Source of the DNA: Terebella lapidaria
Lineage: Eukaryota > Annelida > Polychaeta > Terebellida > Terebellidae
Reading direction: 5' to 3'
Assembly: GCA_949152475.1 (NCBI GenBank)
Contig: OX424555.1
Location: 63,903,977 to 63,967,976, forward strand
Length of the DNA: 64,000 nucleotides
Below are positions 13,083 to 64,000 of this stretch, piece by piece (the first letter of the stretch is position 1; every line of letters begins with the position of its first letter). A program made the position numbers and the translations under genes. The notes beneath the pieces were generated by a model. That model was not told where the DNA came from, did not search any database, and saw nothing but the letters and a program-made list of their open reading frames with translations.

Positions 13083-14182
13083 GTACGTTGTACTGATAGG
13101 AGGTACATCTTATACACTTATCATCCTAAGTTGATCAGTAATGAAATGTGTGAGCATTTGGTAAGTAAAGTGATTACAAACGACATCGAAGCACATCATG
13201 TGGTTGTGAATCATGATTAGTGATGACGAAAGCATTGTGAAACATCTGAGCAAATACATGTACCAACACCAAGCAGGCCGAAGCAATATGAACAATCAAG
13301 TAAAAAAAATTGCAATGAATGAAAAATAGAGTAGAGTAGTGCACCGAACAATGAAACAATCGGCAACTCAACAGCATTACATTCACGTCACAACTGTACA
13401 TACCGGTAGCCCTATCAATCAATTAGAAAAAAAAATACTGAAGAGAATTGAAGAACAGGAATGCCTAAATCCAAAACGGAGTATTTCTTAATTAAATGGC
13501 CGCCTTTATCTGCTCATGAATCATTTAGGGAACAAATGTTAGATGAACAGATGTTATTTATATTTTGTATCCAACTCAAGTCAGATGGAAATTATGCCTA
13601 CATCCACTGCGTGAGAATCTTTAATCAATTTTGTGTATTTAGTTTGCTGTTAGTTAATTAGTTGTATTGACAGGATTGTTGTTTACCTCACACAGAAGCC
13701 CTAACAATGACAGTGGTCACCATGGGATGCGAAATAAGATGAGAGTGTCACCGGGAGGCATTATTTTTGTGGGGATATCATGATCATATATTCTCCTACT
13801 CTTTTTGATTAAGTTTCAGGGTATGAGCTGTTCTCCACTTGCTAATAGAGTCAACCTGTGGCTCTAGGGATAATATAATCTCGTAGGCTTTACTTGATAT
13901 ATCTTTGACACGGAATCTCAATGGCCCGGATCAACATAAGCAGGCTATACAACGCAAAGAATGAACAGTCAATTATGATTAGTACCTCGGAAGAAACCAG
14001 ACATTGACAATCCACACGTACAGGTGATAGATTCAGGTTCAGATGTAATTATGCTAAAAGGTGGCGAGGGTATATAATTGGTACGGATGATTCGTATCGT
14101 TTCAGTTCATACAAATGCCAAACATACGAGACAGCGTACCTCTGTGAACACAAAGTTTGAAAACGCGCTTTTCCTAATAGCA
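13083..14182. other. Intergenic DNA upstream of the second receptor
   Basis: No conserved protein is seen. The stretch includes the probable promoter/leader of the next gene, but no clear TATA box or splice acceptor decides the 5' end. Confidence 0.4.
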
Positions 14183-16873: not shown

Positions 16874-18060
16874 AGGTTGCCGAACCTATGGTCCGATAAC
16901 CTATTGCCGTGGCGTTGCGTCCGTCGTCCGTCCGTCCGTCGTCGTCGTCTGTCCACATTTTTATCTTTAACGTTTACGGTCCAATCTTTCTGAAAATTTG
17001 GGAAAAGATACCTTGAAATAATTTGAGGAGGTATTTTTTTATTTTTTTTATTTTTTTTTTCAAAATGGCGGCCGTTTTCGTCGAAAAACGGTCAATTTTG
17101 AAGTTTGGCGGCCATTTCCTCAAAAACTGTCTGATCAGATTTGAGATTTTTGTTTCAAAAAATTCTCGTTATGTACCTCTGAGATGTGTATAAGTTTGGT
17201 TGCTCTTGAATCGCCGATCTGCGTAGGGCGGCCATTTTGAATTTTCAACAGGTTGACGAAAAAAAATTTTTTGGGCCCAAATTGCATTACTGGCCATTTC
17301 TAGACAAAAAAATTTCACTCTTTGAAAAAAATTTTGGACTTGAAAGAAAGTTTTCGGCACTATTTTTCCTTCATAATGGGAGCAGCCAGGACTGTACTCA
17401 TAGAACGCTTGAAGATAGAGCTTAGAAATTGGCACTTTCAAATGAGAAGTCATATATTATGACAATTTGTGTGGTGACCTTGAATTTGACCTTTGATGAC
17501 CTTGAAAGGTCAAAACAGCCATTTTGGGGTAAAAAATGCCCAGATTTGCCTCTACAGATGAAATGTTTGTAGATAGAGCTTAAGTTTGCACTATGAGCAT
17601 ATATGATGTCATATATGGAACAACTGATGATGACGTTGCCCTTAACCTCAGACTGATGACCTTGAGTGCTAAATGTCCGATATGAAATGTGTAAATTAGC
17701 CTCCGAGGCTTAAACGCTTCTTGCACATACAGGTTAGTATTGTGTATAAGCTTACAAGAAGTCATGTATTTATAGCACATCTCTTGGAGACCTTGAATAT
17801 GACCCTATAGATGACCTTGAAATCCAAATCTCACAACCTTGCCTGACCTGACATGTGTAAATTGGCCTCTACAGACAAAATACTTGTTGATAGAGCTTAC
17901 ATGTTTGCATTATGAACATATATGAAGTCGTATGCAGCATACCTAATGGTGAAATTGCAGTTCACAAAGATGACCTTGATTGATAAATCTCAAAGTCATA
18001 TGTCACTTGCAATGCTTAAAGCCAAAATTGTCCGGTAACCTATCTTGGCCCTTGGGCTAA
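16874..18060 (+). mobile_element. Hairpin-ended satellite element, copy 1 (diverged)
   Basis: It starts AGGTTGCCGAACC with a GGTCCGATAACC partner, has a GTCCGTCGTCC-rich stretch, then 'tgacctt' repeat units, and ends GTCCGGTAACCT followed by the dyad GGCCCTTGGGCTAA. Its terminal repeats are less perfect than in copies at 37405 and 42836. It contains TGACCTTGAAAGGTCA (17497-17512), an everted pair of nuclear-receptor half sites. No transposase is encoded. Confidence 0.75.
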
Positions 18061-19573
18061 TTTTTTTTCCATTTTATCGAACGGCGAGGTCGTAGTATTC
18101 TGTAATACATCGATACGTTTACCGGCTGATGCAGCCAGAGGATTGTGGGTATTCTGACCCCAACCCTATATTTCTCAGAATCGTTGTGCAGTAATACAGC
18201 TGCAAAATCGAGGCAGTGTGATTGTTCTTCCTCTAGAGCTTGGGCAAATCTCGTAGGGATGTTGGCGAATTTGTTGTACTCCCTGTAAACTGCATATTCT
18301 GTCGTACATGTAGTCTCTAAATGTACCGTTGTGTTCCTTGTGGTGTTTGATAATGTTGGTAAATAATGTCCCGGCGATAACAGACCAACACATACAGTGC
18401 ACACATTCTGTCCCTGATGTAGATAGTTTTGCATTCATGGTGGGACACCTTCTCTGTAAGGCGTCCACCTCCGACAACTATTGAAAAACTATACTAATCA
18501 CATCCGACAAACAAATACACGTGATTTTCTCGGACGGTCAATAGAAGCAAACTTACGAACCGAACATACTCTAGTGTTTTTATTTGTGTATGTAAAATAT
18601 TGTTTCAACTATCAACTCCTGGGCTTTACTTTCTAATCTGACTAAATGGCATTCATTTAGAGGGTGAGTAGTATTAAGCCGCAGCGTACGATAGATGAGC
18701 CAATCAATCGGTTACGATAGCTGTTCAACCTGTGGATCAAAAATCGATAACGATAGGTATTCAACTAAAATAATGCAACCTGTATCACATCCTATGTTTT
18801 CAAGAAGCCATCACATGAAAAAAACCTATCATCGTGTTGCAATATTTTCCTTGTACATATATCGCTTTGTATATGGTAATATAATTGTAGATAAATACTT
18901 GTAAATGTTCCGGATATTGTGGTTCGAACATATTGTAAGTGATGTTTTGTATAACGTGGTTATTATCTATATGAGAGTCATAGTAACAGATTATGATGTT
19001 AACCGAATACTGGTCTTCAATTGGAAATTACGAATATCAGCTAAAACGCCATGCCTCTGCTACGGGCAGAACGCACCTGATGTGCATGACCTTCGAAATT
19101 GAAACCAGAAATTCCTTCATTCAAACGTGTCTTGTAACTACTATAAAATATGTACATCGGTTTATTCCATAAATATGTGTACATATATGTATGTCAGTAT
19201 AACATGATATTGTTGTCATATATATCGTCTCGTATTTACACTATTATGCACTTATGTACAAATGCACTAGCAGAGATCTTAGGACTCGTCCTGCTGGTCG
19301 ACGCATCGTTCTCGAATAAGTATGTTTGATCCAAAATGTGTCGTGGAGAATTGTGAATAATACCTTGCTAGAAAATCTAAGTTTGACAACACCGACATCT
19401 CCAGAACCTGGTCACCATTCATACTGGTGTTAGATTAACTGAGGACATCAGTTAATCTAACTGTTTACTATATGTCATTGAAAGTCCTGTTGGTAGTGGA
19501 CGTGTTGAGATTTACAACGACATCCACTTATTTACACAGACAGACACCAACCTGCATTTCCCGTTGAAGAGAA
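18061..19573. other. Intergenic DNA, nothing recognised
   Basis: Short open frames only, on both strands, none with recognisable motifs or splice-bounded coding character. Confidence 0.4.
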
Positions 19574-22844: not shown

Positions 22845-25390
22845 CTGAAATGATTACATAATCCACGAAATCTTTGCTTGAATAGCTTTCGCGTGTATCA
22901 TAGCAATGCACGTTATAGTACTCAGGTATATACATTAATGCTTACAATTAACTGCTAATGTTTTATTGTCATTTGTAATAACGTGTAATTCCCTGCATAG
23001 TTCACAAAATCATCGCATGAACGTCGTGATTGAAACGAATACTACTGGTACTCCGTTATTAAAATAATTAATTCTTACAATCAAATGTACGGAGCCCCTG
23101 AGGTGACATACCAGATATATTTATTAATCCGTGCGCACGAAATAGTAAACTGTGCGCACGAATTAATAAATAATTTCGGTATGTCACCTCATGGGCTCCG
23201 TACAAATTGTAAAATATTGCCCAGATAATTTTTTTAAGATTATCTAATTCCCTGGTGTGATGACGACAAACATCGCGCTCAGGGAAAAAAACATTCGCGA
23301 TCTTGCACAAATCATATTGACATTAGATCGCTATACTGATAGACACATTTTGTTCACAACCAGACGAAGAATATTTTGAACGGTACACTTGTTCATTTGT
23401 TTGAGTGACAGATGGTGATATGGGTATTCAATCCCACATGAAAGACGAACTGAAAGAAGAGTGTCATCAAGTGACATCTAGCATTACTAACACCTTCTGC
23501 ATTATTCAACAATATGGCATTTAGCACCTGCATACGCAAAATGTTGATGTGACCTCCCTGTCGGAGTGCATCAATCGACAATATACCGCCACTCGAAAAG
23601 AAAGCAATTAATTCCCCCAAAACGCGTACTAATATTCCTCAAGAACAAAATGCATTTAACAATGCGGGTAGGGCGAACCCCAAGTGTCATTTGTACCATA
23701 AAATAATGGGAGGTGACCACTGTCCGAACCCTGACCACCGTAAAGTTAGGGCAACCAGCAAGACAGTCAACTCGGGTTCGCTCTGCTTAGTGATTAGAAC
23801 TTGTGCAGAAGGAACTTGTATTGAAGTAAAAGTTGTAACGATGGTGTATTTGTGACTGCGTATAATCTAGTGACAGTAATAACTGGGCACGTAAATTTGC
23901 GTTTGCTTTGGTAAGTTGCTATCACCATTTTGGGTATGTCTACGTTACCTTCCTCACCAGAATTACGTAACTTGATGTCTTTAGACTTGTGCACATCTAC
24001 CGTGAAGTGAATGAATAGTGTGGTCGACGCTCACGACTCAGTTTTTATTCTGGGAATCAAACACGCCCATATATGTCATTGATCAACTTGAACGTGAAAA
24101 TGTAAATGGAGTTTGACCCTAAATGTTATTTTCACTACATAATGGCGATACTCATCTCCAAAAACGGAATAGAGGAGACGAAAATTTCAATGACATTATC
24201 CGATATCCGACCACTGTGTGTGTAAATAGCTTCGCGTGCTACTTGAATGGGTAAAGTAAATGACGGGGCGGATTAAGAGATCCGTATATTTGGTATTGAC
24301 ATCTTCGAAGGTGGAAGTCTCAGTAAATTGCTCCAGTCATCACGTCTTCATTGCAAACAGGGCTTTGGGTCGTGCCCCATCTCGTGCTCTTCCCCATCCA
24401 ATACTTGGCTAGACATTTCAGACAAAACGACTGCAGCATCTAACATAACGTTAAATCTCATCACATTAAGCCAAGCATGTGCTATTATCAAGTAATCTAT
24501 CGTGTATCTGCCGCAACTACAAAACTTTTTAGATGCGTGTCTGTCCCGTGGCACATCATACCCGTAATCGTTAATATTAACATAGACATAGAACAGAGAT
24601 ATTAAACACGTCGTCAACGTCGTTTGGTTTTCAAGATTACCATTTTTGGCCATCTGAATTTCATTTTAATTCCATCGACATTAGATCGATGGCACTGCAG
24701 ACCAGGGGACATAATTTTTCATCAATAAAGGTATATAATTATCTCATCAATAAAGGTATATGCTTTTCTGATACCCTCATTTATTGTAGTTCTAAACAAG
24801 CCACAATAATTTTTGTTTGATTTCCTTTACCATAATGGCGTACAATCAAACAGATTAGAGTATCATACCCAGATTGTCAAGCACAGTTTCCATTTATGGC
24901 TTCTTATTTCCTCCAAGTTCAATCCACTCTTTTTGTGAAATACATTTGCAGTTGGTGACTCAGGGTAATCTGAGTCAAAATCAACGTCACCAGCGCTGAT
25001 TTTCCGATTTCTTCCAATTGTTTGTCTCCGAGGACCAAATTAAGTATTTTGTGAGCTACATGGTCCTGAGTTTGAACACTCATTGTGACCTCTTTCCAAA
25101 TTCAATGTCACTAAGTTATGCCTAATATATTGCTTTGTGGATGTGCTTAATATGCCTACGCCGATCTTCAAGTAGTGTTTCTTCAGAGGCCGCCTGTCCA
25201 ATTCCAGGACTGACGTTAAAACACACACGGTCATCCAAGGTCGATTTCATATTCTCTGTTAAGAGGCGTGTACGTTATTTTGTATCCTTCCTTAATACAG
25301 ACTTCACATGTACATGTACATGAAATCTGTAACCGTCTTTTGACTCTCTAATTATAAGTTAATTACAGTGTTCAAGAATTGACTGACAGG
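22845..25390. other. Intergenic DNA with one palindromic element
   Basis: No gene is recognised. It contains the 119-bp palindrome at 23086-23204 and a duplicated CATCAATAAAGGTATAT near 24720 and 24745. If the minus-strand receptor has a 5' UTR exon, it lies here but was not located. Confidence 0.4.
23086..23204. mobile_element. 119-bp near-perfect palindromic MITE
   Basis: The arms begin TGTACGGAGCCCCTGAGGTG and, on the other strand from the right end, TGTACGGAGCCCATGAGGTG. They fold almost to the centre, where GTGCGCACGA occurs twice. It is all arm and no body, the form of a very short fold-back MITE or an arm-only solo end. Confidence 0.8.
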
Positions 25391-37404: not shown

Positions 37405-38256
37405 AGGTTACCGGACCTTAGGTCCGATAACCTATTGCCGTGGCGTTGCGTCCGTCGTCCGCCGTCGTCGTCCGTCTACATTTTTATCTTAAAAGTTTAC
37501 AATCGATTTTTTTCTGAAATTTTGCACTAAAATGCATGAAAATATTTCAAGAGGGAGGTTTTAAACGGCGGCCATTTTTGACGAAAAACGACCAATTTTG
37601 GACTTTGATGGTCGTTTTCTCAAAATCAGTTCAGTAACTTTTCTTGTTATTGATGCATAACACTCCTCATATATACCCCCATAATGTGTATAAGTTTCGT
37701 TGCCCTTGAATCGCTCGGAGTGGGCCATATCGGGCCCAAACTCTGCCCAAATTGGACTTTCCCATGTCAAATTCTCCTATGCTTTATAATGGGGCACATA
37801 TTTTCCAAATATCTCACTTAATATTGAGATTAGAGATTAGCAATCAAATGTGGACATATAGGGAATGATATTTGCTGAATATTCTCACGACCTTGAATTT
37901 GACCTTTGACCTAATTTTCAAGGTCACAGGACAAAATTGCTAATATCTCGCATATTATCGACTTCACAGCTTAGGAATCAATTATGAACATATAGGAAAT
38001 GATATATTCAGAAAATTGTTGTGACCTTGAATTTTACCTTTGATCTCGTTTTCAAGGTCACAGGACAAAATGGCTTATATATCGCTCATTATCGACTTTA
38101 CAGCTTAGGAATCAATTATGAACATATAGGAAGTGATACATACAGATTATTCTCGTGACCTTTAATTGACCAATAACCTTATTTCCACGTCACGGGACAA
38201 AAGGCTAATAATGAAAATATATAGTGTCCGGTAACCTTCCTTAGCCCTTGGGCTAA
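37405..38256 (+). mobile_element. Hairpin-ended DR1-satellite element, copy 2
   Basis: It starts AGGTTACCGGACC with the hairpin GGACC-TTA-GGTCC, continues with TGCCGTGGCGTTGCGTCCGT and a GTC-rich stretch, then AAATGGCGGCC-like blocks and units of the about 131-bp satellite. It ends GTCCGGTAACCT followed by the hairpin TTAGCCCTTGGGCTAA and a T-run. T-runs flank both ends, so a target duplication cannot be resolved. Confidence 0.8.
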
Positions 38257-40594
38257 TTTTTTGTTATTTCGATATCGAATATGACAGCTTGTTTGTAAAT
38301 AGGCGATTAGATCGGCATTATGTGACTGCGTTTCACCATCGCGCTATTTGTTCCACTACAGATTTGTGACAGGGTACGGTCACCGTGTCATATGATCTGT
38401 AGATCATTTTAAACGTCAGTAATATTTTACACATCACCCGCCCGATGCATGGCATATTAGGTTTGAATGATTTTATATGGTGAAATCCTATTATGTGATT
38501 GTGTCTAGAAATTCATGCACATTTTCTCTATATCATGAATATATCTTTTTTTTTGCAAAACAAAATAAGTACTCTGGTGATATCAGCTCTGTTCATAGAT
38601 GCCCATGACTATCCTTCTCTTCTCAGATATAGCCAGAATATACTCGCCGATGGGGCTATGACATTTGCAAAGGTAGATAATGTTTTATTAAAAAAAAGTA
38701 TCATACCTTGTAGGCCGTACGCGTATCCGCTAATAGTATCCTTCTGTTACGTTCTTTATCGGTCGCATGCGTTGTGGGCACTGAGAGCCAGTGAAAGGCG
38801 CAAGCGGTGTCTTTCCAGGCTTTTTGAGATCCACGCAGTGAAAAGAGAACCCACTCGCTTGAGCTGTAGAGGAACAGATGTGAGCCAATGTCGCTTCCTC
38901 TGTGAATCCTGTACCCGCATGTCACAACAAAACTCGTTACGAATGAACAGAATCAGCTTCACGAAGCTCCTCTAATGGACCGATTCACACGTGTTTTTTC
39001 CCCTGGGTAGTTCATTATTATGGAATTTTTTTGCAATGTGTTCTCATGCCTGATGACACATGAACGACTGCGATATATAGAATTCATTCTACACCGTAAA
39101 TAGGTTATTATTGATCAATAACATGAAAGGGAAAATCACTTTATTTGATGTGAGGAGTATTTCAAAAGTATGTTTTCCCCGTTATATACATTTTCTGTTG
39201 GAAACTTGCCTGTATTACTATAAGACCTACTAATCCCAAGGACGGTGTACGGACAGCATAATACTTGCTAACGAGCAACACGTCCGGATTGATTAGTGGG
39301 GCGTGCACATGTCATTCGTCAGACTACAAGTGCCTTTGTTTTTTTTTTTGTTTTTTTTTGTGTCGAGAGTTTTAGTAGTCAGCGCACACAATTCACATCT
39401 AGGACCATGTCGTGCACTGCATTACTTTCCTCATATTTGAACTATAACCAATCGCCTGAAATACTAGTAGCATTGATGAATCATAGGTTAGTAGACCAAG
39501 ATATGTCGCACCATGCCATCTGTCATCATTTTTCATGCAAGCATGATTTGACTTCACGCATTGTAATTAATCAGGAGTCAGTAGTGTGCATAATGAACCA
39601 GTCGTATGTTTAATACTCGAACAAAGCCGCTGCAGTGTATCGTGGATAGGATAACATGATTATCAATAACATAGCACAAAATGCTATCAGCATTCGACAC
39701 CGAATTCTCTCGCAGTGACAAGAATTGTTTCTGTATGAATGACCACTATCAATTCTACGATATTATTTTATTAGTACACACAAACGGGGTCTGGAAGAGA
39801 TACACACACATGAGCAATGTTCCCAAATCAGGAACATCCCAAATCAGGAACATATTTGGGTGTTAAAAACATAAAGACGTGAATACGCGATTGTTGGATA
39901 TACTTTGGTCGGCAGTCCAGACTGCATGTTACCCTTACGCATATGTTGACCATGAAATTGGTCAGAAAGAGAGTCAGGGCAACTTTGGCACAGGTGTTGA
40001 ACGTAGAATGTGAATGATGTCCAATTACCAATAGGAGTAGGCTAGCATACACAATTGTAAGTAGGATCGAGAGATGGGTCCAGGGTAAGAATCGGGACAT
40101 CGATGGTACTGGGCCACCGTCAGAGCACCGTTCCCGACATTGCTTACGATTTACTGACAGTAGCCTACATGTATGTGATTTTTTTCGCCCAGATAATGAC
40201 GTGTCTAAGAAAAGTAACTTTATTTTTCGTGAGAATATATTATTATGAAACGCGATTAACACTTCTATAGGTATTCAGAACCAGTTTGACAACGGAAATA
40301 ATAACATCGATTGAACGCCTATCACCAATTCAAAACATGAAGCAGTTACACATGTATTTGTCTTTGTCTCCATATCATACCTCGTCACAAGATGTATGTA
40401 TCCCAGATATAATATAGGCCTACGACACAGGTCTCCGTGAAGTGTGGTAAAGTTTGTTCGTATACCCGGATATGACTTACTTCTGGCAAGTTATGCCTCA
40501 CATTGGATGCGCCCCGAATATTGACGGATTTTTACTTTCGTTAGATAATAATTCTTTCAAACACTTCAATGTCTATTCTTCAGAAATTAATTTC
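38257..40594. other. Intergenic DNA, no gene recognised
   Basis: A 158-codon plus-strand frame (38499-38975) has no recognisable domain and mixed coding character. T-rich runs near 39340 and a duplicated CCCAAATCAGGAACAT near 39824-39852 are the only structures seen. Confidence 0.4.
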
Positions 40595-42685
40595 CTGGTC
40601 ACCCCCTGTTCGCGGCACAGCGGTAAATCAATTCTTGACGTTATCGGTTTTAAATTCTTGACGTTATGCGCAAAATTCTTGACGTTATGCACGAAATTCC
40701 TGACGATATACTTTTGTGTAGCAACAGAATGGACAATTGAGTACGTTTAATAATGAAGTAAACCTGATATGGAACAATGAATATCGTGATAGTTATGCGC
40801 ACAGTACGCAGATACTATATATATCTTGATATGTAGTCCAACTGTGGGTTCAAGCAGCATTGTAAGTAATATACAACGAGCGTTCGATGGTTAACTCTGA
40901 ATATTGTTCTCCAGCTCTCGAAAAACGGTCAATAAGTATGTGTAATGACTATTTGATTCATCAGTAATTTGTACGATGATGTTACATGCGGAACAGTGTG
41001 GTTATTAATAGGGAAACCTACGATTCCACAATTTTGCACGGCGCTGAAATATTGACGTTATGATTACACAAGTTAATCATTCTTGACGTTATATCACAGA
41101 GAAGTTCGTCATTATTGACGATATTGGTTTTTATTGATTTAAAGAAAAAACATGTTTATAAAAGAAAGAAAAATGTAATTATAGTATTAAATGTATTATT
41201 GATAAGTATTTATCATATGTTGACGTTTAACCCGTTATAAAGCGTCATGGTGCTACATAACAACCGTGTACTCATTTCATGGCTCAGAAATCTATTATGT
41301 ACGCAACAGAAATGTTTTTCCCTGCGTGAAGAAAGTCCTTTGGGGTATATGACCGATGGTCGTTAACATCACCCTATGTGTATTTTGTTGTTTTCCGACT
41401 TCTCCGACGACTCTTTTAGATTCAGCATAGGCCTACATTGGTGTAGATTACGCGGACTTGCAATAAAAGCCGAGACATTTCGATAATTTCATACAAATAT
41501 ACTGCTAATATTAATGTCTTGAATTTGGTGACAAAATTAAGTGCTTTTTTAAATTAGTTTGCAGCTGGTATGCGACAGTTCCTTAATGTATTCTCATGCC
41601 AGTTATTTATTTCAATTATTTATTTCAATATTAATCAATTTGCGTTATATAACTACGCCAACAAAGTTACCACTAGAAATGTGTTGTATTGTAGCGATGG
41701 ACAGTAATACATTGGTTTTGAGCATGAATTTATTAGGATGTTTTCCTAACAGAATTGCCGACGGCTACGAAAGCTCAGGCCCAAAACCCAGTACTGGCGG
41801 TCTGGCAAGCAAATGGTACATCTAAGTAGTCTTTGGGGGAGATAATTTGGCTGAGGGTGTTCACAATTTGCCGTGTCATTTACTTTGATTTGACTGATTG
41901 TATGACGTTCTATATGAACTGTATATATATTGGTGTGGCGCTTTCGTATTGGAATAAACTGTGTACCCAAGTTTTCTGCATATTATATGACATCTTAGAG
42001 TGGCTCAGGATGTTCATTTCTTGCATGTTGTAATACGTCATTTTTTTTACATACATTTGTTTTTACATATGTAGCATCGTATATTTGTCATCTCGATTAT
42101 CTGCAAGAGAAAACCACTCTTTAATTCAATTTTACTACTTAATTAAATCGCCATCATGCGTCAAAAATAACGACAAAAATTTCTAACATGGCTTTCAATA
42201 ACGTCAAGCATGACGAACTAACGTCAATAATACCGAACTTATCATTGTTGGTGGAAAACGACTGACAGCTATGTTTAATTTAACATCTGGGCTCTGAACC
42301 TTTCAATGCTTAATCATAAATGAGCTGCCAATATGCTAACGCTCATTTTCAGTACATAGCTGATGCATTGCATGGAAATAAAATGCATTTAGTACATTCG
42401 GATAAGTGCAAGGCACGATCTTCAACTTTTCTGACATCTCAGCGCGTGACTGGGATGCCATATGCTTCGTCTAACTCATAAATCGAATATATAGTCACCC
42501 TCTTACTAATTACTTGAACAAAGTTAGATAATCTATGCTGAGATCGCGACAGAACAAAACATAAACAAAGATATCGTTAAGAATTTCGCGCATAACGTCA
42601 AGAATTTTGCGCATAACGTCAAGAATTTAGAACCGATAACGTCAAAAATTTACTTACCGCTGTGCCGCGAACAGGGGGTGCTGGT
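40595..42685. mobile_element. 2.1-kb TIR element with TGACGTTAT subterminal repeats and CTGGT target duplication
   Basis: The left end at 40600 reads CACCCCCTGTTCGCGGCACA and the reverse complement of the right end (42680) begins with the same 20 bases. The repeats match for about 110 bp. Each arm carries ATTCTTGACGTTAT-type units spaced about 25 bp, three per arm near the tip, and further copies occur internally (about 41055, 41095 and, inverted, about 42190-42225). CTGGT flanks both sides (40595-40599 and 42681-42685). The longest internal frame is 88 codons without motifs, so the element is non-autonomous. Superfamily unknown; 5-bp duplications are not diagnostic. Confidence 0.85.
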
Positions 42686-42835: not shown

Positions 42836-44466
42836 AGGTTACCGGACCTTTGGTCCGATAACCTATTGCTGTGGCGTTGCGTCCGTCGTCCGTTCACATT
42901 TTTATCTTTAAAGTTTACAGTCGAATCTTTTTTAAATTTTGCAAAAAAATACCTAAAAATATTTCCAGGAAAAGTTTTTTTCAGTTTTTTTATTTTCGCA
43001 TTTTTTTCAAAATGGCGGCCGTTTTTGACGGAAAATGTCTGATTTTCGACTTTGGCGGCCATTTTCTCAAAATCTGTTCAGTAACTTTTTTTCTTTTTGA
43101 TACATAACACTCCTCATATGTGTTCATGTGATGTGTATAAGTTTCGTCGCGCTTGAATCGCCCAAACTTGGCCAAAATAGGACTTTCCCATGTTAAATTC
43201 TCCTATGCTTTATAATGGGACACATTATTGCTAATATCTCACTTAATATTGCGATTAGAGACTAGGAATCAATTGTGGACATATAGGAAATGATATATGC
43301 TGAATATTGTCGTGATCTAGAATTTGACCTCTGACCTCATTTCCAAGGTCAGAGCATAAAATGGCTGATATCTCTCTTATTATCGACTTTACAGCTTACA
43401 AATCAATTGAGGACATATAGGAAGTGATATATGCTAAATCAGTCTTGAACTTGACCTTTGACCTCAATTTCAATGTCAGAGCATAAAATGGCTAATACCT
43501 CGCTTATTATCAACTTTACAGCTTAATAATCAATTGTGGACATATAGTGAACGATATATGCTGAATAGTGTCGTTACCTTGAATTTGACCTTTGACCTCA
43601 TTTTCTAGGTCAATTCACAAAATGGCTGATATCTCGCTTATTATCGACCTTACAGCTTACAAATCAATTGGGGACATATAGGAAGTGATATATGCTGAAT
43701 CAGTCTTGAACTTGACCTTTGACCTCATTTTCAATGTCAGAGCATAAAATGGCTAATACCTCGCTTATTATCAACTTTACAGCTTAATAATCAATTGTGG
43801 ACATATAGTGAACGATATATGCTGAATAGTGTCGTTACCTTGAATTTGACCTTTGACCTCATTTTCTAGGTCAATTCACAAAATGGCTGATATCTCGCTT
43901 ATTATCGACCTTACAACTTTGCAATCAATTGAGCACATATAGGAAATGATATATGCTTAATATTGTCTTGAAATTGACCTTTGACCTCATTTACAAGGCC
44001 AAAGCACAAAATGGCTGATATATCGCTTATTATCGACTTTGCAGCTTGGGAATCAATAGTGATCATATAGGAAACGATGTATGTTGAATGTTGTCATGAC
44101 CTTGAATTTGACCTTTGACCTCACTTTCAAGTTCAGAGCACAAAATGTCCAATATCTTACTTATTATCAACTTTAAAGCTTAGGAATCAATTGTTGACAT
44201 ATAGAAAGTGGTATATGCTGAATATTCTCATGACCTTGAATTTGACCTTTGATCTCATTCCCAAGGTTAGAGCACAAAACGGTTAATATCTTGCTCATTG
44301 TCGATTTTGCATCTTAGGAATCAATTATGGATATGAAAAGACATATGCTGAATAATCTTTTGACCTTGAATTTGACCTTTGACCTTGTTTTAGGGTCACG
44401 GGACAAAATGGCTAATATCTAAGATGTAAAATATTGTCCGGTAACCTTTCTTAGCCCTTGGGCTAA
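42836..44466 (+). mobile_element. Hairpin-ended DR1-satellite element, copy 3 (longest)
   Basis: The left end is AGGTTACCGGACC-TTT-GGTCC and the right end is GTCCGGTAACCT plus TTAGCCC-TT-GGGCTAA. The body is a satellite of about 131-bp units, each with TGACCTTGAATTTGACC or a variant, CAAAATGGCTAATATCTCGC, TTATTATCGACTTTACAGC and GACATATAGGAA blocks. Exact TGACCTTTGACCT occurs at 43452, 43586, 43713, 43847, 43975, 44109 and 44373. Alternate spacings (134, 127, 134, 128) show a two-unit higher-order repeat. No protein is encoded. Confidence 0.85.
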
Positions 44467-44480
44467 TTTTTCTTGTACTT

Positions 44481-45514: not shown

Positions 45515-46439
45515 ATAGTACTGATTCCAAATATCAAGACAAGAAATGCCGTATTCCCCGGCTATCTCACCCGTTCACTTGAACTGTCAAACATACACCA
45601 GGGAAATTAATATGTGTTTACGTTGCTGGCTTCATGTACTTTCACTTCTGCCTCAACTGACGTCACCAACCACGTGACCCACACTAGAGTCGGGATCGAA
45701 ATCTTCGCCAATTTACGGAAGGAGTGCGTATTTGATTCAATATCTCGAGACCAATTGATTGTATTTGTAAAATCCGTTCGGAATTATTGAAAACTATTGA
45801 TAATAGACTAAATGAAAAGTACTTTAATCGGCATGCTACTAGGTCTTTATCCTGTTTGATTCAATACCTCGAAACCAATTATTGTATTTGTAAAATCCTT
45901 CGAAATTATTGGAAACTATTGATAATAGACTAAATGAAAAGGACTTTAATCGGCATGCTACTAGGTCTTTAAGGATATTATTCGAATATTCAACATCGTT
46001 CGTACGAAACATTCTCGGACGATCCTCAATCATGCCACATATTCGGAGGCGCATGTGTTCTTTACATCCCCTCGCTTTAAACGACTTGAACTATGTGCTG
46101 AAGCAGTGTTTTTGCATCAATGTCTGTCTCAGAGGCTCCTTGAGACATTTCTTCAAAGCACACAGCATTTGAAATCACGAGAACAGATAATAACGTCACC
46201 CAGTTTTCCCGCTAGCATGGCGAACGACGTCTCGTTGTGAAACTGACCAGCGTATTGATTTGGTAGACAAGAGTTTAAGAACAATTTTTTCCCCAAATCA
46301 AACACATGCTTGTGGTCTCAGAAAAATAGGTTACAAAACAATGTATACTGGATCAGATGGATAAATCAAGCATATTACATTGCTAGCAGCCGCATTTCTT
46401 TTGTGCGCCACTCAGAGTTACCTCTGACTTAACCTAGTT

Positions 46440-47072: not shown

Positions 47073-47980
47073 AGGTTACCGAGCCTTGCCGTGGTGTTGC
47101 CATTTTTGATCTCATTCTCAAGGTTAGAGCACAAAATGGCTAATAATTCGTTTTTTGTCGACTTTGCAGCTCAAGAATCAATTGTGAACGTATAGGAAAT
47201 GATATATTCTGAATATTGCCATGACCTTGAATTCGACCTTTGACCTCATTTTCAAGGTCAAAGGACAAAATGACTAATTTCTTGTTTTGAAGCTTAGGAA
47301 TCAATTATTGACATATAGGAAGTGATTTTCGCTGAATGTTCTCGTGACCTCGAATTTCACTTTTGATCTCATTTTCAAGGTCAGAGCACAAAATGGCTAA
47401 TATTTTATAATGTCGACTTTGCAGCTTCGGAATCCATTTTGCACATATACATATTTATGTATCAATTCCAAAGCTTAGGAATCAATTGTTGACATATAGG
47501 AAGTGATTTTCGCTGAATGTTCTCGTGACCTCGAATTTCACTTTTGATCTCATTTTAAAGGTTAGAGCACAAAATGGCTAATATTTCGCTTATTGTCGAG
47601 TTTGCAGCTCAGGAATCAATTTCGGACACACACATGTATAGGAAATGTTATATGCTGAATATTCTCATGAACCTGTCAACTTTATTTTCAATGTCAGGGC
47701 ACGAAGTTGCTAATATCTCGCTTATTATCGACTTTGCAGCTTAGGAATTAATTATGAACAAATATGAAACAATATATGCTGAATGTTGTCATGACCTTAA
47801 ATTTGACCTTTGACCTCATTTTTTAGGTCAGAGCACAAAATTGCTAATATTTTTTTCTATTATTTAATTTACAGCTGAGCAATCAATTGTGGACTCATGA
47901 GAAATGATATATGTTGAAGATCTTGTCACCTTGAACTGGTTTGAGTATTGACCTCATTCTCAAGGTCACGGGACACACCC
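47073..47980 (+). mobile_element. Hairpin-ended DR1-satellite element, degenerate partial copy
   Basis: It begins AGGTTACCGAGCC then TGCCGTGGTGTTGCC, as the full copies do but with the GC-rich stretch deleted, and continues as about seven diverged satellite units. GACCTTTGACCTCATTTT occurs near 47239 and 47806. The right end with GTCCGGTAACCT is missing. It sits inside the 45-49.6 kb fold-back element. Confidence 0.7.
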
Positions 47981-54501: not shown

Positions 54502-54658
54502 TGTAGTGTAGTAATCACGCAGTTCGTATTTTATGTTGATGTGTTGAACGAGATAATTATTGACGGTTCGGAAATGATAGACTCGATCGGTACTTCCGGT
54601 AGCGAATAGAAGTTCTGAAAACGTGTTCATTGTTATATTCGAGTCAATAAACATTACA
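54502..54658 (+). repeat. 5' LTR of the Gypsy element
   Basis: It runs from TGTAGTGTAG to AAACATTACA, 157 bp, identical to the 3' LTR. It contains AATAAA at 54646-54651, near the end, a poly(A) signal in the R/U5 position. The termini are TG...CA as usual. Confidence 0.93.
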
Positions 54659-54661
54659 TTT

Positions 54662-54675
54662 TGGCGACGAGATGG
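54662..54675 (+). other. Primer-binding site
   Basis: TGGCGACGAGATGG starts three bases after the LTR; the leading TGG complements a tRNA CCA end. The gag ATG (54672) lies inside or immediately beside this site, so the untranslated leader after the LTR is almost nil. The tRNA species is not assigned. Confidence 0.75.
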
Positions 54676-55832
54676 CAGAATCTTTGCCTACATTCCCTCG
54701 TTTTGATGTCAGTTACGATGCTGGTGACGTCGCTGTCCGCTGGAAAAAGTGGATCGCCCGCCTGAAAAATCTGATGCTGGCTGTCAACATCGATGACGCT
54801 CGCAGACAAAAAGCACTGCTGCTGCACTATGCTGGCGAGGAAGTTCACGATATATTTGACACTCTGGCAAATACTGAAGCCGCAGACGGTGAAAATGCGT
54901 TTGACAAAGCAGTAACAGCCCTGACGGCACATTTTGCGCCAAAACAAAACAAAGAATTTGACATCTACAAGTTTCGTCAAGCCTCACAGCAAAAAGGTGA
55001 AAACATATCACAATTATGCACTCGCTTGAGGCAGTTGGCCACAACTTGTGACTTTACAAACACTGACGCAGAAATAAAGAGTCAAATCATTCAGCAGTGC
55101 TCCTCAAACAAATTGAGAAGAAAAGCCCCGTCAGATCCAGACATGACTCTTCCCAAACTCCTCGAAATTGCCAAAACCATGGAGGAGACCGCTGTACAAG
55201 CCAAAGGTATTGAATCACATACCGAGAGAACCAAGAGTGTCAACAAGCTCTCTCAAAGTTCACAGAGACATGGACAGAGACACCCCCAAGCAAGCTCACA
55301 CAAACCAAACAGTGTTAGTACCAAACACAGAAGCGCTCACAGTAACAAAACAACCTCAAACAACCTGTGCTTCAACTGTGGACAGTCCTGGCCACATGAG
55401 GGTGGTCAACAGAAATGTCCAGCGAAGGGACATGTGTGTGAAAACTGTGAAATGAAAAATCACTTCGGGTCATGCTGTCAAAATGTACCTGAAGGACAAC
55501 AAAGTCGTCAGACACTCCACAAACGCAGAAGACATAGACGGAGGAATCCAAATTCGTCTGTAAGGAGAGTCAAGGCAGAAAGTACAGAATCAGACAGTGA
55601 TGAGTACGTATACACACTCCACCTCAATACACTGGGGAAGTCACTGGGGCACACAAACTCCAAGCGTCCCACATTCGCAGTCACCGTGAACAGTCAAACA
55701 CTCACACTCACAGCTGATACTGGGGCAGAGGTGAACGTGATGGATGAACGGGACTTCGCAAAACTGTCCCCACGTCCAAACCTGGAAGCTACAAACTCCA
55801 GAATATTCCCATATGGTTCAAAAAGCCCTTGA
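54672..55832 (+). CDS. gag: Gag plus N-terminal protease of the Gypsy element
   Basis: 386 codons. Residues 1-200 are an alpha-helical capsid-like region (RWKKWIARLKNLM, EEVHDIFDTL, FDIYKFRQASQ). Residues about 233-269 contain a Cys/His cluster ending in a standard CX2CX4HX4C knuckle (CENCEMKNHFGSCC), which binds nucleic acid in the particle. A basic linker follows. Residues about 348-352 are the aspartic protease active site DTGAE, so the protease begins in this frame. The frame closes at TGA 55830-55832, while pol continues in the -1 frame. Confidence 0.9.
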   Translation: MAESLPTFPRFDVSYDAGDVAVRWKKWIARLKNLMLAVNIDDARRQKALLLHYAGEEVHDIFDTLANTEAADGENAFDKAVTALTAHFAPKQNKEFDIYKFRQASQQKGENISQLCTRLRQLATTCDFTNTDAEIKSQIIQQCSSNKLRRKAPSDPDMTLPKLLEIAKTMEETAVQAKGIESHTERTKSVNKLSQSSQRHGQRHPQASSHKPNSVSTKHRSAHSNKTTSNNLCFNCGQSWPHEGGQQKCPAKGHVCENCEMKNHFGSCCQNVPEGQQSRQTLHKRRRHRRRNPNSSVRRVKAESTESDSDEYVYTLHLNTLGKSLGHTNSKRPTFAVTVNSQTLTLTADTGAEVNVMDERDFAKLSPRPNLEATNSRIFPYGSKSP

Positions 55833-58786
55833 AAATTAAAGGAACTTTTCAAGCTGATGTTCGGTACAAAGAAACACAAACGAGCGAGAAGTTCTATGTC
55901 ATTGGAGGCTTCGGTGGATCTCTGCTCAGCTACAACGCATCGTTAAACCTCCAGCTCATCAAGATTATCCAACAGACATCAGTGGAGCATGAAAACAGTA
56001 ACAATGACTTCATCACCAAGTTGGTATCTGAACATAGAGAGCTATTCACAGGGCTTGGAAAGCTAAAGAACTTCAAAGTCAAGCTACATATCGACTCAGA
56101 GGTGCAACCTGTTGCGCAACCCCACCGGCGAGTTCCATTCCACGTCAGAAAGCAGCTACAGGAACAGCTAAAGCGGGATGAAGAACTCGGAGTGATCGAG
56201 CGAATCGAAGGACCAACGCCGTGGGTATCTCCGCTGGTCGTAGTCCCCAAACCAAAAAATCCTGACCAGATCCGTGTCTGTGTGGATATGCGACATCCAA
56301 ACGAAGCTATCATGAGAGAGAGGCACATCACGCCAACCATCAATGAACTGGTGAGTGACCTCAATGGCGCATCTGTGTTCAGCAAATTAGATCTCAACCA
56401 AGGGTACAACCAACTGGAACTTGACCCAGAATCAAGGTACATAACAACCTTCTCGACCCACCTAGGCCTGTGGCGGTACAAGCGACTGAATTTTGGAGTG
56501 TCAAGTGCCGCAGAGGTGTTCCAAAATGCCATTCGCCAGACTTTGACTGACTTGCAAGGCACAATCAACATCAGTGATGACATCCTGGTGTATGGGTCAT
56601 CACAAGAAGAACATAACAAGAATCTGAAAGCCACTTTTCAGCGACTCAGTGAAGTTGGCCTGACACTGAATGAAAGCAAGTGTGTGTACAACAAAACCAC
56701 TCCAGAATTCTTTGGACATGTGTTCTCAAAAAATGGCTTGTCAGCTGACCCAAAGAAGGTACAAGCTATTGACAACATCAGCACGCCAACAAACACAACT
56801 GAGCTCAGAAGTCTGCTGGGCATGCTCAACTTCTGCTCCAGGTTCATTCCAGGGTATGCAGCTCTAACCCAGCCGCTGCGTGACCTCACCAGAAAAGGTG
56901 CCCCGTGGAACTGGACCTCGAAATGTGAGGCCGCACTGAAGTCACTAAGAGACTCACTGAGTGCTGCTCCAGCCCTTGCATATTTCGACACCACAAAGCA
57001 CACAGAGCTCTACGTGGACGCAAGTCCCATCGGATTAGGTGCTATACTAGTCCAGAGAAATGCCGGGGACAAAAACCACAACATCATTGCATATGGAAGC
57101 CGTGCTCTCACACAAGTCGAACAGAGATATTCACAAACTGAAAGAGAGGCACTTGCAGTGATCTGGGCCTGTGAGCACTTTCACTTGTACATCTATGGGC
57201 AGCCAATAGTGATCTACACCGATCATCGCCCCCTGGAGTCAATCTACGGAAACCCAAACCTGAAACCTCCTGCGAGAATCGAACGCTGGACTCTCAGACT
57301 TCAGCCCTACAATGCTAAAGTGTGCTATCGACCTGGCTCAGAAAATCTGGCTGACTTCTTATCGCGACACCCCTGTGTATCCACCAAAGTAACATCTCGT
57401 GAAGAGAAGGTGGCAGAAGAATATGTGAACTATGTTACGACAAACGCTGTCCCAAAAGCCATGAGCGTTGACATGATCAAGCAAGAAACTCTACGAGATC
57501 CAACTCTACAAGCTGTCAAAGGAGCTATACTCTCCGGCAAATGGCGCCTGCCACAGTCACATGACGTAGATGCAGATGCATATCGACAGTTTGAATGCCT
57601 CAAAGGCGAGCTCACAGTGTCCCAGGAAGGAGACATGATACTCCGTGGATATAGACTGGTGATACCAAAAATGCTACAACAACACGCCATCCAGTTAGCG
57701 CATGAAGGACATCAAGGTATCATCCGGACGAAAGCCCTGCTCAGACAGAAGGTGTGGTTCACTGGGATCGACAAAATGACAGAACAAGCAATAAAGTCTT
57801 GTATTGCCTGTCAAACAGCAGTCCCAGAAACAAAACGTGAACCGTTGAGGATGTCAGAACTACCACAATGTGCTTGGGAGCAAGTCAGTGTTGATTTCGC
57901 AGACATCCAAACTGGACAATACCTCCTTGTATTTATGGATGACTACTCACGATTTCCGATAGTTGAAGTTGTCGGATCAACATCCGCAAGCACAGTGATA
58001 CCCAAAATCGATAAGGTATTCTCAGAGTACGGAATCCCCAAGGTGCTTCGATCAGACAATGGACCTCCATTCCAGAGCCGAGACTTTGCGAACTTTGCAG
58101 AAACTCTAGGATTCCACCACAGGAAAATTACACCATACTGGCCCAGAGGCAATGCCGAAGTAGAACGGTTTATGTGCACGTTGAAGAAGGTGATCAAGAC
58201 ATCGATCAGTGAACAAAGAACCTGGCGAAAGGAAATGCATCAATTTCTGCGAAACTACCGCGCCACACCTCATTGTACGACAAATCAGTCACCATCACAC
58301 CTCATGTTTTCACGACCATTCAAGGTAAAACTTCCCGAAAAACCTGGAGACTGTTCGACGAGGAACCAGGAAGAGCTAAGGAAGCGTGATCGAGTCCAAA
58401 AGGAAAAGATGAAAGCACACTCGGATGCAAAAGTGTATGTCAAACCCTCAAACATCCAAGTAGGAGACACCGTCCTTGACAAACGCACCAGAATGTACTC
58501 AAAGGGACAGACTCCGTATGATCCAAGACCATGCAAGGTCATCAAGATCAAAGGATCGATGATCACTGCAGAAAGGGGTGACAGTTCAACAGTAACAAGG
58601 AATTCATCGATGTTCAAGAGGCTGGATCTCCAGGACATCTCAACACTTGATGACTCAGACGACTCAGACGACTCATTGCCGGAAAATGAGCCACAGGTTG
58701 TACCTGAGCCTGATGTTCCTCCTGCTCGTCGGATTCAGAGAGATCGTCACAGACCCCGCTACTTGGATGATTATGTTGAACATTGA
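55829..58786 (+). CDS. pol: Pol polyprotein (protease C-terminus, RT, RNase H, integrase)
   Basis: About 985 codons in the -1 frame relative to gag. There is no ATG at the overlap (the first codon counted is TTG), so expression needs a ribosomal shift, or the element carries a one-base lesion. From the overlap: residues 1-45, rest of the protease; RT with KLDLNQGY (Asp188) and ISDD (Asp250-251) in place of YVDD; RNase H with YVDAS (Asp397), TERE and TDHRPL (Asp465); integrase zinc module with H625/H628 and C658/C661; catalytic triad Asp689, Asp743 and Glu779 with 35 residues between the last two. An acidic Asp/Ser repeat (about 940-949) precedes the C-terminus. No internal stop is present. 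Confidence 0.92.
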   Translation: MKIKGTFQADVRYKETQTSEKFYVIGGFGGSLLSYNASLNLQLIKIIQQTSVEHENSNNDFITKLVSEHRELFTGLGKLKNFKVKLHIDSEVQPVAQPHRRVPFHVRKQLQEQLKRDEELGVIERIEGPTPWVSPLVVVPKPKNPDQIRVCVDMRHPNEAIMRERHITPTINELVSDLNGASVFSKLDLNQGYNQLELDPESRYITTFSTHLGLWRYKRLNFGVSSAAEVFQNAIRQTLTDLQGTINISDDILVYGSSQEEHNKNLKATFQRLSEVGLTLNESKCVYNKTTPEFFGHVFSKNGLSADPKKVQAIDNISTPTNTTELRSLLGMLNFCSRFIPGYAALTQPLRDLTRKGAPWNWTSKCEAALKSLRDSLSAAPALAYFDTTKHTELYVDASPIGLGAILVQRNAGDKNHNIIAYGSRALTQVEQRYSQTEREALAVIWACEHFHLYIYGQPIVIYTDHRPLESIYGNPNLKPPARIERWTLRLQPYNAKVCYRPGSENLADFLSRHPCVSTKVTSREEKVAEEYVNYVTTNAVPKAMSVDMIKQETLRDPTLQAVKGAILSGKWRLPQSHDVDADAYRQFECLKGELTVSQEGDMILRGYRLVIPKMLQQHAIQLAHEGHQGIIRTKALLRQKVWFTGIDKMTEQAIKSCIACQTAVPETKREPLRMSELPQCAWEQVSVDFADIQTGQYLLVFMDDYSRFPIVEVVGSTSASTVIPKIDKVFSEYGIPKVLRSDNGPPFQSRDFANFAETLGFHHRKITPYWPRGNAEVERFMCTLKKVIKTSISEQRTWRKEMHQFLRNYRATPHCTTNQSPSHLMFSRPFKVKLPEKPGDCSTRNQEELRKRDRVQKEKMKAHSDAKVYVKPSNIQVGDTVLDKRTRMYSKGQTPYDPRPCKVIKIKGSMITAERGDSSTVTRNSSMFKRLDLQDISTLDDSDDSDDSLPENEPQVVPEPDVPPARRIQRDRHRPRYLDDYVEH

Positions 58787-61446: not shown

Positions 61447-64000
61447 TTACTCCGAGTCCGTATCCGACTCAGAGACCGTCGGTTCCGTCTCCGGAACACT
61501 ACTCTGCTTCGGCGGCTCCGTCTGCCTCCAGGAATCCGCCATTCTCCGCTTCATCCATCTCGGATGCTTGACACCATTATACGGTTTCAGCAAATCGAAG
61601 TGAACCACCTTCTGTCGAGTTTCACTCTCTGCAATCTCGTAGGTCACGTCGGTAAATCTGCTCAGCACTAGCTTTGGACCGCTCCACTTCCTCTGCAACT
61701 TGGGAGCTTTGCCCTTCTTCCGTGTTTTGACCGCCATCCACACTCGGTCTCCTGGCTGGAACTGATTGTCGACCTTCCTCCGGTCGTACAGCTTCTTCTG
61801 CCGTTCCATTTCTCTGCCAGATTTCGCTCGAACCGCCTTGTATACCGCTTCTAGTCGCTCCCGGAGCTGACTGCCATACTCTGTTACTTCTGCTGTTGAT
61901 TCTCCCGGCGGTCTGCCAATCAGTAACTCTACCGGAGTGTTGACTTCTCTGCCCAGCATCAGCAAGTTGGGACTCTGCCCGGTTGTCTCCTGCGGGGTAC
62001 TCCGGTAAGCTGCCATCGCCAACGGTACTAGCTGATCCCAGTTGGTCTGCCGCTCGCTTACGTACAGGCTCAGGATCTGCTGCAGCGTCCGGTTGAATCG
62101 CTCAATGAAACCGTCCGACTGAGGTCGGAAAGCGGTTGTCCGTGTCTTGTGAATCCCCAGGATTCTGCAAACATTTCTCAGCAAATCGGACTCGAAATTT
62201 CTGCCTTGGTCGGTGTGTATCTCCATCGGGATGCCGTACCGCGCTGCAAACTGGTTGACGAATATGTCCGCAACCGTCACCGCTTCCTGATTCGGCATCG
62301 GGTAAGCCTCTACCCACTTGGTGAAGTAATCGCCGATTACTAAGATGTACCGGTTCCCCCGGGTGGATTTAGGTAACGGACCCATCACGTCCATTGCCAC
62401 CCTCTCCATGGGCGCTCCAACCCGGTATTTCTGCATCGGAGATCGTTTCAAGTTCTGCATACTTCTTGACGCACATTCGTCACAGCTCAGCACCCACTGC
62501 TTTATGTCCCGCATCATAGCCGGCCAGAAATACCGCCTCCGAATGCTAGCCGCCATCCTTCTGCTTCCGAGGTGTCCTCCCGTCCGGCTCTGATGGGCCA
62601 GACGGAAAATCTCCTGTCTCAGCTCCTTCGGGGTTATTAACTGCATTCGGCTGGTTCCTTCTGCCGTTTTCCATTTCCGGTAGACTACTCCGTCGACTTT
62701 CAGCAAGGTCTTCCGCATCCCGTACAGCACTTTCTCCTCGCTGCTCATACTGGAAAAGTCTGCACTGCCAGCTGTACCGCTCCCGTCGATCAGCGACGTC
62801 ACCAGTGGGTACCAAGGTTCTGCTTGCTGCATTCTCCGCAAATCATCTGGTCGATATTTCTGCCCCAGCACAGCATCCTGGTCCGCATTTTCCGCCAGCC
62901 TAATCTGCTCTGCAACCGCATCCGCTTTCCCTGGAACTGCCTTCTCCGTCACCGCAACCGCAACCGGCTTCCGGGACGCTGCTTTCTCCGCTACTGCAAC
63001 CGCCTTCCTTGGGACTGCTTCCTTCGTCACCGCAACCGGCTTCCGGGACGCTGCTTTCTCCGTCACCGCAACCGCAACCGGCTTCCGGGACGCTGCTTCC
63101 TCCGTCACCGCAACCGCAACCGGCTTCCGGGACGCTGCTTCCTCCGTCACCGCAACCGCAACCGGCTTCCGGGACGCTGCTTCCTCCGTCAGTTCTGCTT
63201 CTCCGCCCGATCTTCGTGACCGCTTCCGGCGTCCCCCCTTCCTTGGCTTGGGCTGAGGAGTTTCTTCACTTCGTGTCTGCCGGATCCTTTCTCCGTAGTT
63301 CCAGGCGTCTATCTTGGCTTGTTTCCAGTCGATTTTTCCGCATTGGCTGCATGGGGATCTGGACAAGGCATCTGCGTTATTATGGATTCGCCCCGGACGA
63401 TGTTCGATGTCGAAATGAAACTCACTCAGGAGCTCAATTCACCGGGCTACCTGCCCCTGGGGCTCCTTGAAATTCATAAGCCAGGTAAGACTGCCATGAT
63501 CTGTGCGAAGAAGGAAGTGTCGTCCCAGCAAGTATTGCTTATTCTTCTGTACCGCGAACACAACCGCCAGGAGCTCCTTCCGGGTGACACAATATCTCCG
63601 TTCTTCTTTGGTTAAACTGCGGCTCAAGTAGGTTATCACCCGCTCCTGGTTGCCCTGCTTCTGTGACAGTACTGCTCCCAGCCCGGTGTCACTGGCGTCC
63701 GTGTCCAGGATATATCGGCCTTGCTCCCTTGGGTACCCGAGTATCGGTGCCGATACTAGGCGGTTCTTCAGCTCTGCAAATGCCTGCTCTTGCTCCGTCT
63801 GCCACCGAAACTGCACCCCTTTTTCCGTCAAGTGATTCAGCGGCGCTGCAATCTCGGAGAACTTCGGCACGAACTTCCGGTAATAGGAGCAAAGTCCCAG
63901 AAAACTGCGCAGCTCCGTCAGGTTGGTGGGTGTCCGCCACTTCCGTACTGCCTCCGTTTTTGCCGGGTCGGTGCGGATACCGTCTCTGCCGACTATGTGA
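61447..64000 (-). pseudogene. pol: Ty3/Gypsy pol (RT thumb, RNase H, integrase), one in-frame TGA, cut by window edge
   Basis: A single minus-strand frame is open from the window edge to the stop at 61447, except for TGA at 63439-63441. It encodes the end of RT (RSFLGLCSYYRKF), RNase H (ILDTDASDTGLGAVLSQ, TRKELLAV, LRTDHGSLTWL), a long repetitive linker, the integrase zinc module (HQSRTGGHLG to CDECA), catalytic blocks (MDVMGPL, HTDQGRNFES, SDGFIERFNRT) and a GPY/F-type module (KWSGPKLVLSRF). The TGA lies just after QGQVAR, where Gypsy RNase H usually has Trp. Codon use is far richer in G+C than in the other Gypsy element or the host genes, suggesting a different lineage and perhaps recent transfer. 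The N-terminal half lies beyond the window. Confidence 0.88.
62913..63195 (-). repeat. In-frame 42-bp minisatellite in pol (14-residue repeat)
   Basis: The segment between RNase H and integrase consists of about seven units of EEAASRKPVAVAVT or close variants. The first three are virtually identical; later ones are shortened or altered by whole codons. The frame is kept throughout. Confidence 0.9.

Follow-up and report, generated by a model that had tools for sequence, protein, structure and literature searches.

Non-autonomous Helentrons (HINEs) with central satellites are already known. The Cg_HINE elements of the Pacific oyster, for which 7,151 arrays in 13 clusters are reported, combine a 5' subterminal inverted repeat (subTIR) and a complementary inverted repeat (IR) with a GTC-type microsatellite, short central arrays, a 3' subTIR with a palindrome and an insertion preference for T-rich sites (PMC7492417). 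Similarly, the DINE-1/HINE elements of Drosophila, a mite and Culex carry subTIRs, a 3' stem-loop and terminal T-runs, with some of them having a tandem or microsatellite centre (PMC4067079). The element described here shares their structural features and is likened to both groups by plan, not by sequence; the oyster unit is mostly 140-180 bp long, compared to ~134 bp here. No mention of a receptor motif was found in the available portions of either description (PMC7492417, PMC4067079), and the terms 'nuclear receptor' and 'transcription factor' occur 0 times in the accessible text of two later oyster papers (PMC8268682, PMC11136912). This locus bears on the question of why Helentrons carry satellites.

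Repeats which carry nuclear receptor sites have been described in other settings. The mouse SINE B1/Alu is a dispersed repeat with TCAAGG[T/C]CA-type sites to which an orphan receptor binds in early embryos, and at the 2-cell stage 73.6 % of NR5A2 peaks overlap it, according to the consulted sections of PMC12848575. SINE B1 is, however, a retrotransposon with the site TCAAGGCCA for which binding was shown, whereas the sites predicted here have T at base 7 and lie in the tandem arrays of a Helentron (PMC12848575). The Alu family has likewise spread consensus direct-repeat receptor sites across a genome, with RAR on the Alu DR2, but the latter arose largely via CpG deamination in AluS, while here a DR1 and half-sites lie within satellite units (PMC1785376, as excerpted). 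The NR2C/F receptors on the variant telomere repeats of ALT cells also bring orphan receptors and tandem repeats together, although these are telomeric repeats in tumour cells, for which a direct correlation between repeat content and binding is lacking according to the part of the review that was available (PMC8905155).

Structure of the element and its related copies

The window, the whole 64-kb stretch of DNA that was analysed, lies on contig C1 of an animal genome assembled into 438 contigs (761.6 Mb). The initial annotation placed a DR1-bearing satellite inside a transposon-like element, and this element (42836-44471), the ends of which agree with the limits drawn for it there, is well supported as a HINE with a central nine-unit satellite (Table 1). 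It is assigned to this class because its subTIRs, IR, palindrome and central satellite match the plan given in the accessible parts of PMC7492417 and PMC4067079. The element ends read AGGTTACCGGAC...GTCCGGTAACCT, and their arms are perfectly complementary over 12/12 bp (42836-42847 vs 44436-44447). The hairpin of the 5' subTIR and internal IR has a DNA fold of -10.6 kcal/mol (z -5.4), and the 3' palindrome (folding z -2.2) recurs in two related copies, at position 18045 with one mismatch and at position 38241. T-runs flank both ends in three copies, which may reflect insertion into T-rich sites without target-site duplication, as is typical of HINEs. The GTC-type microsatellite stretch stands out best in the copies at 16.9 and 37.4 kb. 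The left flanks of two copies incorporate CAAAATGGCGGCC (17061 and 43008), which we take to be YY1-like.

A search for stop-to-stop frames of at least 150 aa within 42836-44471 found none, and the Rfam and tRNA scans of the 64-kb window were empty. Relatives were sought with three patterns in the public virus collection (0 matches), and no match was found among phages. A single match in the prokaryote genome contigs (two patterns), of archaeal origin, represents the word inside an open frame with no longer similarity to the element, and was taken as chance. The long homogeneous arrays of a classical heterochromatic satellite were not seen in the position-chosen stretches, where the twelve arrays of the 134-bp family comprise 2-15 full units each; longer arrays may occur elsewhere in the genome.

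Table 1. Positions of the HINE features, the receptor-type sites and the related copies in the window
Feature	Position	Strand	Remark
5' subTIR, AGGTTACCGGACC	42836..42848	+	T-run precedes
Internal IR, complementary to the 5' subTIR	42852..42864	+	one mismatch; pairs as hairpin with TTT loop
Left flank	42875..43228	+	short GTC-type stretch, then segment common to the 16.9- and 37.4-kb copies
Central satellite array	43229..44420	+	nine units of ~127-134 bp
DR1 with one mismatch, unit 1	43325..43337	+	mismatch at spacer base
Exact DR1, unit 2	43452..43464	+	AGGTCAAAGGTCA on the minus strand
Exact DR1, unit 3	43586..43598	+	
Exact DR1, unit 4	43713..43725	+	
Exact DR1, unit 5	43847..43859	+	
Exact DR1, unit 6	43975..43987	+	
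Exact TGACCTTGA, unit 7	44097..44105	+	TCAAGGTCA on the minus strand
Exact DR1, unit 7	44109..44121	+	
Exact TGACCTTGA, unit 8	44231..44239	+	
DR1 with one mismatch, unit 8	44243..44255	+	
Exact TGACCTTGA, unit 9	44361..44369	+	
Exact DR1, unit 9	44373..44385	+	
3' subTIR, GTCCGGTAACCT	44436..44447	+	
3' palindrome, TTAGCCCTTGGGCTAA	44451..44466	+	followed by T-run up to 44471
Related HINE, same end type	16874..18068	+	diverged ~158-bp-unit array; TGACCTTGA in 4/4 units; no DR1
Related HINE, same ends	37405..38262	+	three 134-bp-type units; one exact DR1
Related HINE, truncated	47073..47976	+	5' end eroded; no 3' end detected; six more complete units plus fragments; single exact DR1

The word TGACCTTTGACCT, which reads AGGTCAAAGGTCA on the minus strand, matches the DR1 consensus exactly. 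As the initial annotation had claimed, the exact DR1 occurs seven times at a spacing of about 131 bp; these copies lie in 7/9 units within 43230-44420 and, taken together with the two one-mismatch sites, are spaced at 127-134 bp. Across the 64-kb window there are sixteen DR1 matches with up to two mismatches, against 1.86 expected. The dimeric higher-order repeat proposed in the same annotation was overstated, being confined to a recent 261-bp duplication of units 2-3 into units 4-5 (97 % and 100 % identical); the remaining pairings among the nine units share 73-86 % identity. The accompanying TGACCTTGAA, said there to occur often, is exact in just 3/9 units. Related copies with fewer DR1 sites do exist at 37.4 and 47.1 kb; that at 16.9 kb, however, has no DR1 at up to two mismatches and comprises a different array of longer units. 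In the consensus ~134-bp unit, two extended half-sites TCAAGGTCA are found in inverted orientation on either side of the DR1.

The 16.9-kb copy represents a diverged second family of ~158-bp units, which is homologous to the 134-bp family (upstream of the motif, 0/1000 shuffles score as high). The four units in the window are 56-72 % identical and share one invariant run of 11 bp, GATGACCTTGA, the next longest being 3 bp; with the units anchored on the word, and the self-alignment phase agreeing within 3 bp, a run of this length was reached by 12/100,000 column permutations. A third family, with 147-bp units, occurs at L025:8700-9700 and L024:1-760, where it is bounded by other, AAATGCC-type ends that appear HINE-like by eye. 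Its consensus holds TGACCTTTGACCTTGACCTT, and outside the motif no similarity to the 134-bp unit was detectable (289/1000 shuffles score as high).

Abundance of the receptor-type words and of Helentron machinery

The genome scan for the family which the initial annotation had proposed revealed that the sites are hugely amplified, with 59,461 exact DR1 copies compared to 49 for the reversed-word control, and 11,255 copies of the HINE 3' end (up to two mismatches) compared to 0 for its control. Furthermore, TGACCTTGAATTT occurs 95,835 times (control 17). Helitron_like_N matches were scored for 150 of 234 candidates, and 104/150 are located in open frames of >2,000 aa; Helitron/Helentron machinery is therefore present in the genome. 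Many of the listed matches, which are spread over numerous contigs, have equal scores and frame lengths, which suggests recent Helitron/Helentron activity.

Word counts were obtained from twenty 10-kb stretches of a single contig, taken every 3 Mb along C1 and set before looking. After low-complexity filtering, TCAAGGTCA is the top 9-mer in these 200 kb, with 165 copies in 12/20 stretches, against a Markov-1 expectation of 2.2 and a single copy of the reversed word. These copies are distributed among the 134-bp family (109), other tandem arrays (20) and elsewhere (36), with eighteen of the last group forming pairs of the 22-bp kind that characterises the 158-bp-type family. The 9-mer CAAAATGGC is also part of the 134-bp unit, and has 60 copies in the same sample. 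Since DR1 copies are denser in the sample than in the genome (160 vs 78 per Mb), the genome total for TCAAGGTCA of ~3x10^5 was extrapolated with a correction for this density ratio. Among the one-base neighbours of the motif (n=168), the two core G bases were changed most (34 and 33). The variant with C at base 7, TCAAGGCCA, has just seven copies, equal to TCAAGGGCA and exceeded by six other one-base neighbours, and NR5A-type tolerance of C at this position was thus rejected.

Conservation of the half-sites and the DR1

Units of the 134-bp family were detected by profile with the whole site block masked (114 hits including the window), and 79 full-length units from the position-chosen stretches were retained, partial units and those of the window being left out. 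In these 79 units, which derive from twelve arrays in seven stretches of one contig and are thus not independent, mismatches to the consensus amount to 35/697 (5.0 %) in the left TGACCTTGA and 44/711 (6.2 %) in the right TCAAGGTCA, compared to 100/1010 (9.9 %) in the DR1 and 854/6992 (12.2 %) in the rest. The base-matched rest for the left arm mismatches at 13.2 %. Among 124 9-mer windows, the left arm takes first place in conservation and the right arm sixth; the windows ranked second to fifth overlap the arms. Base-matched p values are 5e-5 for the left arm, 0.001 for the right arm and 5e-5 for both together; when CpG-prone columns are omitted, those of the left and right arms become 1e-4 and 0.002. 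The constraint is about even across the G/C and A/T sites of the word.

The initial annotation had proposed to test whether the DR1 is more conserved than its neighbours. The DR1 does fall below the base-matched rest in 11/12 arrays, as do the left and the right arm, but it ranks only 33rd of 120 13-mer windows, with p 0.083 (0.16 without CpG-prone columns), and is exact in 23/79 units. Support for the DR1 as the best-conserved core is weak. The window alone supplied 18 units, or 15 when three recent duplicates are counted once each; here the DR1 has a raw rank of 15/121, a joint highest exact-match count among 121 and a base-matched p of 0.026, and the half-sites change more slowly than the rest while the linkers do not. 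The initial annotation picked the less conserved half of the site block; the commoner and better-kept word is TCAAGGTCA/TGACCTTGA, without the DR1. Since the test is weak for the DR1 and strong for TCAAGGTCA, the idea of a receptor site survives as a lead, with an ERR/NR5A-type monomer word as the better-kept unit.

A search for the second family with the word masked yielded 31 units, which come from the window and five of the stretches. Their mean mismatch is 23.4 %, while that of TGACCTTGA is 1.9 %, joint first of 146 windows; an exact copy is found in 27/31 units, and the second copy of the word mismatches at 7.3 %. The iterated profile for this family drifted into the 134-bp family, and the combined 129-unit run is taken only as supporting. 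Constraint is weaker in the 147-bp family, ten units of which place TGACCTTGA eighth among 139 windows and the adjoining TGACCTTTG 64th.

Timing of the constraint

Motif differences were compared among unit pairs of increasing divergence, in a contrast that matched only G/C vs A/T classes and kept the CpG columns. Twelve recent mutual-nearest pairs of the first family (median distance 4.5 %) show 11 motif differences against 11.1 expected, and 13 against 8.1 at the DR1; eight recent pairs of the second family show 5 against 7.6. Among all pairs, the bins of which are not independent, the observed/expected ratio at the motif in the first family is 0.39-0.53 for units 10-30 % apart and 0.72 for the eleven deepest pairs, while the second-family bins above 10 % give 0.20-0.52. 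In total, 9/10 bins above 10 % divergence lie at 0.20-0.53 of expectation in the two families; the closest bins (0-10 %) are at 0.53 and 0.25, respectively. In both families the motif is poor in variants common to several stretches (p 5e-5) but not in singletons, the counts of which are blunted by saturation. The pattern, with small numbers of recent pairs, suggests purifying selection on TCAAGGTCA in spreading element lineages and near-neutral decay of settled copies. As recent pairs differ as expected, selection on the element fits better than a maintained host platform.

Candidate receptors and explanations for the retained word

The genome contains 65 zf-C4 matches, and the identities of DNA-binding exons were derived from 26 small stretches. 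The exons at C7:598 kb have ERR structures as best match (1e-41), those at C13:29.49 Mb NR5A2 (9e-41) and those at C11:35.77 Mb HNF4-alpha (5e-42). COUP-TF, RXR, TR2/4, NR4A and ROR-like exons, named by eye, are also present. In the accessible text of two reports (PMC8451941, PMC6459935), the consensus given for ERR/Esrrb is identical to TCAAGGTCA; at base 7, Esrrb is favoured by T and Nr5a2 by C.

The reading we prefer, tentatively and with a little less than even confidence, is that of a HINE with a selected ERR/NR5A-type half-site in its satellite and receptor-aided mobilisation. The element would presumably depend for its mobilisation on Helitron/Helentron proteins encoded in the same genome, and an ERR- or NR5A-type orphan receptor, present where Helentrons move (the germ line or early embryo), would bind the sites. 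Such binding may keep the element in open chromatin, with the result that copies with intact site clusters would be mobilised more often. In the spreading lineages TCAAGGTCA would be kept by purifying selection, and settled copies would decay approximately neutrally. The DR1 could add RXR/HNF4/COUP binding, as a secondary and weakly kept feature. The frequent changes of the core G bases count against a receptor reading, since receptor contacts alone would not predict them, although G/C sites change faster everywhere.

The word may alternatively be a neutral passenger, incidental to the HINE satellite, with its low divergence stemming from shared ancestry, homogenisation of units and chance among many windows. 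The near-average divergence of the DR1 agrees with this, as do the word not being the best window of the 147-bp family, the motif deficit that is also seen in the close all-pairs bins, and AATCAA, which is retained in the window as often as TGACCT (14/15 units each) and which to our knowledge is not a receptor word. It is nevertheless an unlikely explanation, given that the same 9-mer is best or joint best in two diverged families under masked ascertainment and base matching, that the signal stays without CpG columns (first family) and in 11/12 arrays, and that the tests within the window agree, with slower half-sites, linkers that are not slower and the 11-bp invariant run of the 16.9-kb copy. 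With a similarly low probability, TGACCTTGA may have another reader, either a CENP-B-like satellite-binding host protein or a Helentron/host factor that acts in repeat amplification or rolling-circle replication, in which case the match to a receptor site would be a coincidence. In CENP-B box satellites a short protein-binding word is kept across diverse satellites; that box is a different word from TCAAGGTCA, and the likeness is one of a short word kept in satellites. The location of the word within tandem repeats would suit such a reader, including the 147-bp satellite with its other ends and lack of similarity outside the motif, and so would the even constraint over G/C and A/T sites and the core G bases that are not spared. 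However, the word is exactly the ERR consensus in the available parts of the published reports (PMC8451941, PMC6459935), ERR and NR5A exons are encoded in the genome, and the copies are located in the array, at a distance from the transposition signals that the accessible text of PMC4067079 proposes, namely the subTIRs and the palindrome.

The initial annotation's proposal, in which DR1 sites would serve the host as multimeric hormone-receptor platforms or as a sponge, appears very improbable. The genome-wide DR1 count, the sampled units with an exact DR1, the HNF4 exon and the RXR-like exon named by eye would accommodate it, but the DR1 drifts at near-average rates and the recent pairs are unprotected both at the DR1 and at the half-sites. 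It is also highly improbable that DNA structure explains the word, through inverted arms forming a hairpin relevant to rolling-circle replication. Folding of four unit segments as DNA gave z of -3.5 to -4.0 in three of them and -1.0 in the other, the arms are most often arranged as inverted pairs at a distance of 30 bp (26 pairs), and double changes in the arms are slightly above expectation (6 vs 2.3). Against this, only three of the six double changes, among 774 arm pairs, are compensatory, and in the second family the word is retained as direct pairs at a distance of 22 bp (14 pairs). Selection on the hairpin is thus not supported, with no compensatory excess in the paired cells (84.5 % vs 84.0 % shuffled) and a covariation score that was reached by 49/500 shuffles.

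A wider scenario, which we regard as possible though rather doubtful, is that a Helentron-borne satellite 'library' has raised the ERR/NR5A monomer site to an extrapolated ~3x10^5 copies, which would place it among the most frequent words in the genome. Elements with intact site clusters would have spread because an orphan pioneer receptor opens them in the germ line or early embryo, and HINE-like families of unrelated ends would have come to share the word, as SINE B1 did in mammals. If TCAAGGTCA is indeed a receptor site selected in the spreading lineages, the satellite would be a working part of the element, a multi-site landing pad and not filler, and would parallel SINE B1/NR5A2 in a different animal and with a different class of transposon. 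The genome would have been seeded with potential receptor sites in the hundreds of thousands, and a testable protein-DNA pair is predicted. The open-access literature searched yielded no HINE satellite in which, across two diverged families, the monomer site of an orphan receptor is the word kept best, although a mention may have been overlooked.

Other features of the window

A 122-bp unit at 45731-45971 is duplicated with 94 % identity and does not contain the receptor word. Minisatellites with related 21-bp units occur at 40652-40709 and 42571-42652, and both contain a AACGTCAAGAATT-like stretch, in one or the other orientation. The window further encodes three rhodopsin-family GPCR frames (11505-12365, 14078-15229 and 21621-22853) and two Ty3/Gypsy-type elements (54651-58786 and 61447-63438), the second of which incorporates a 42-bp minisatellite in frame (62912-63191).
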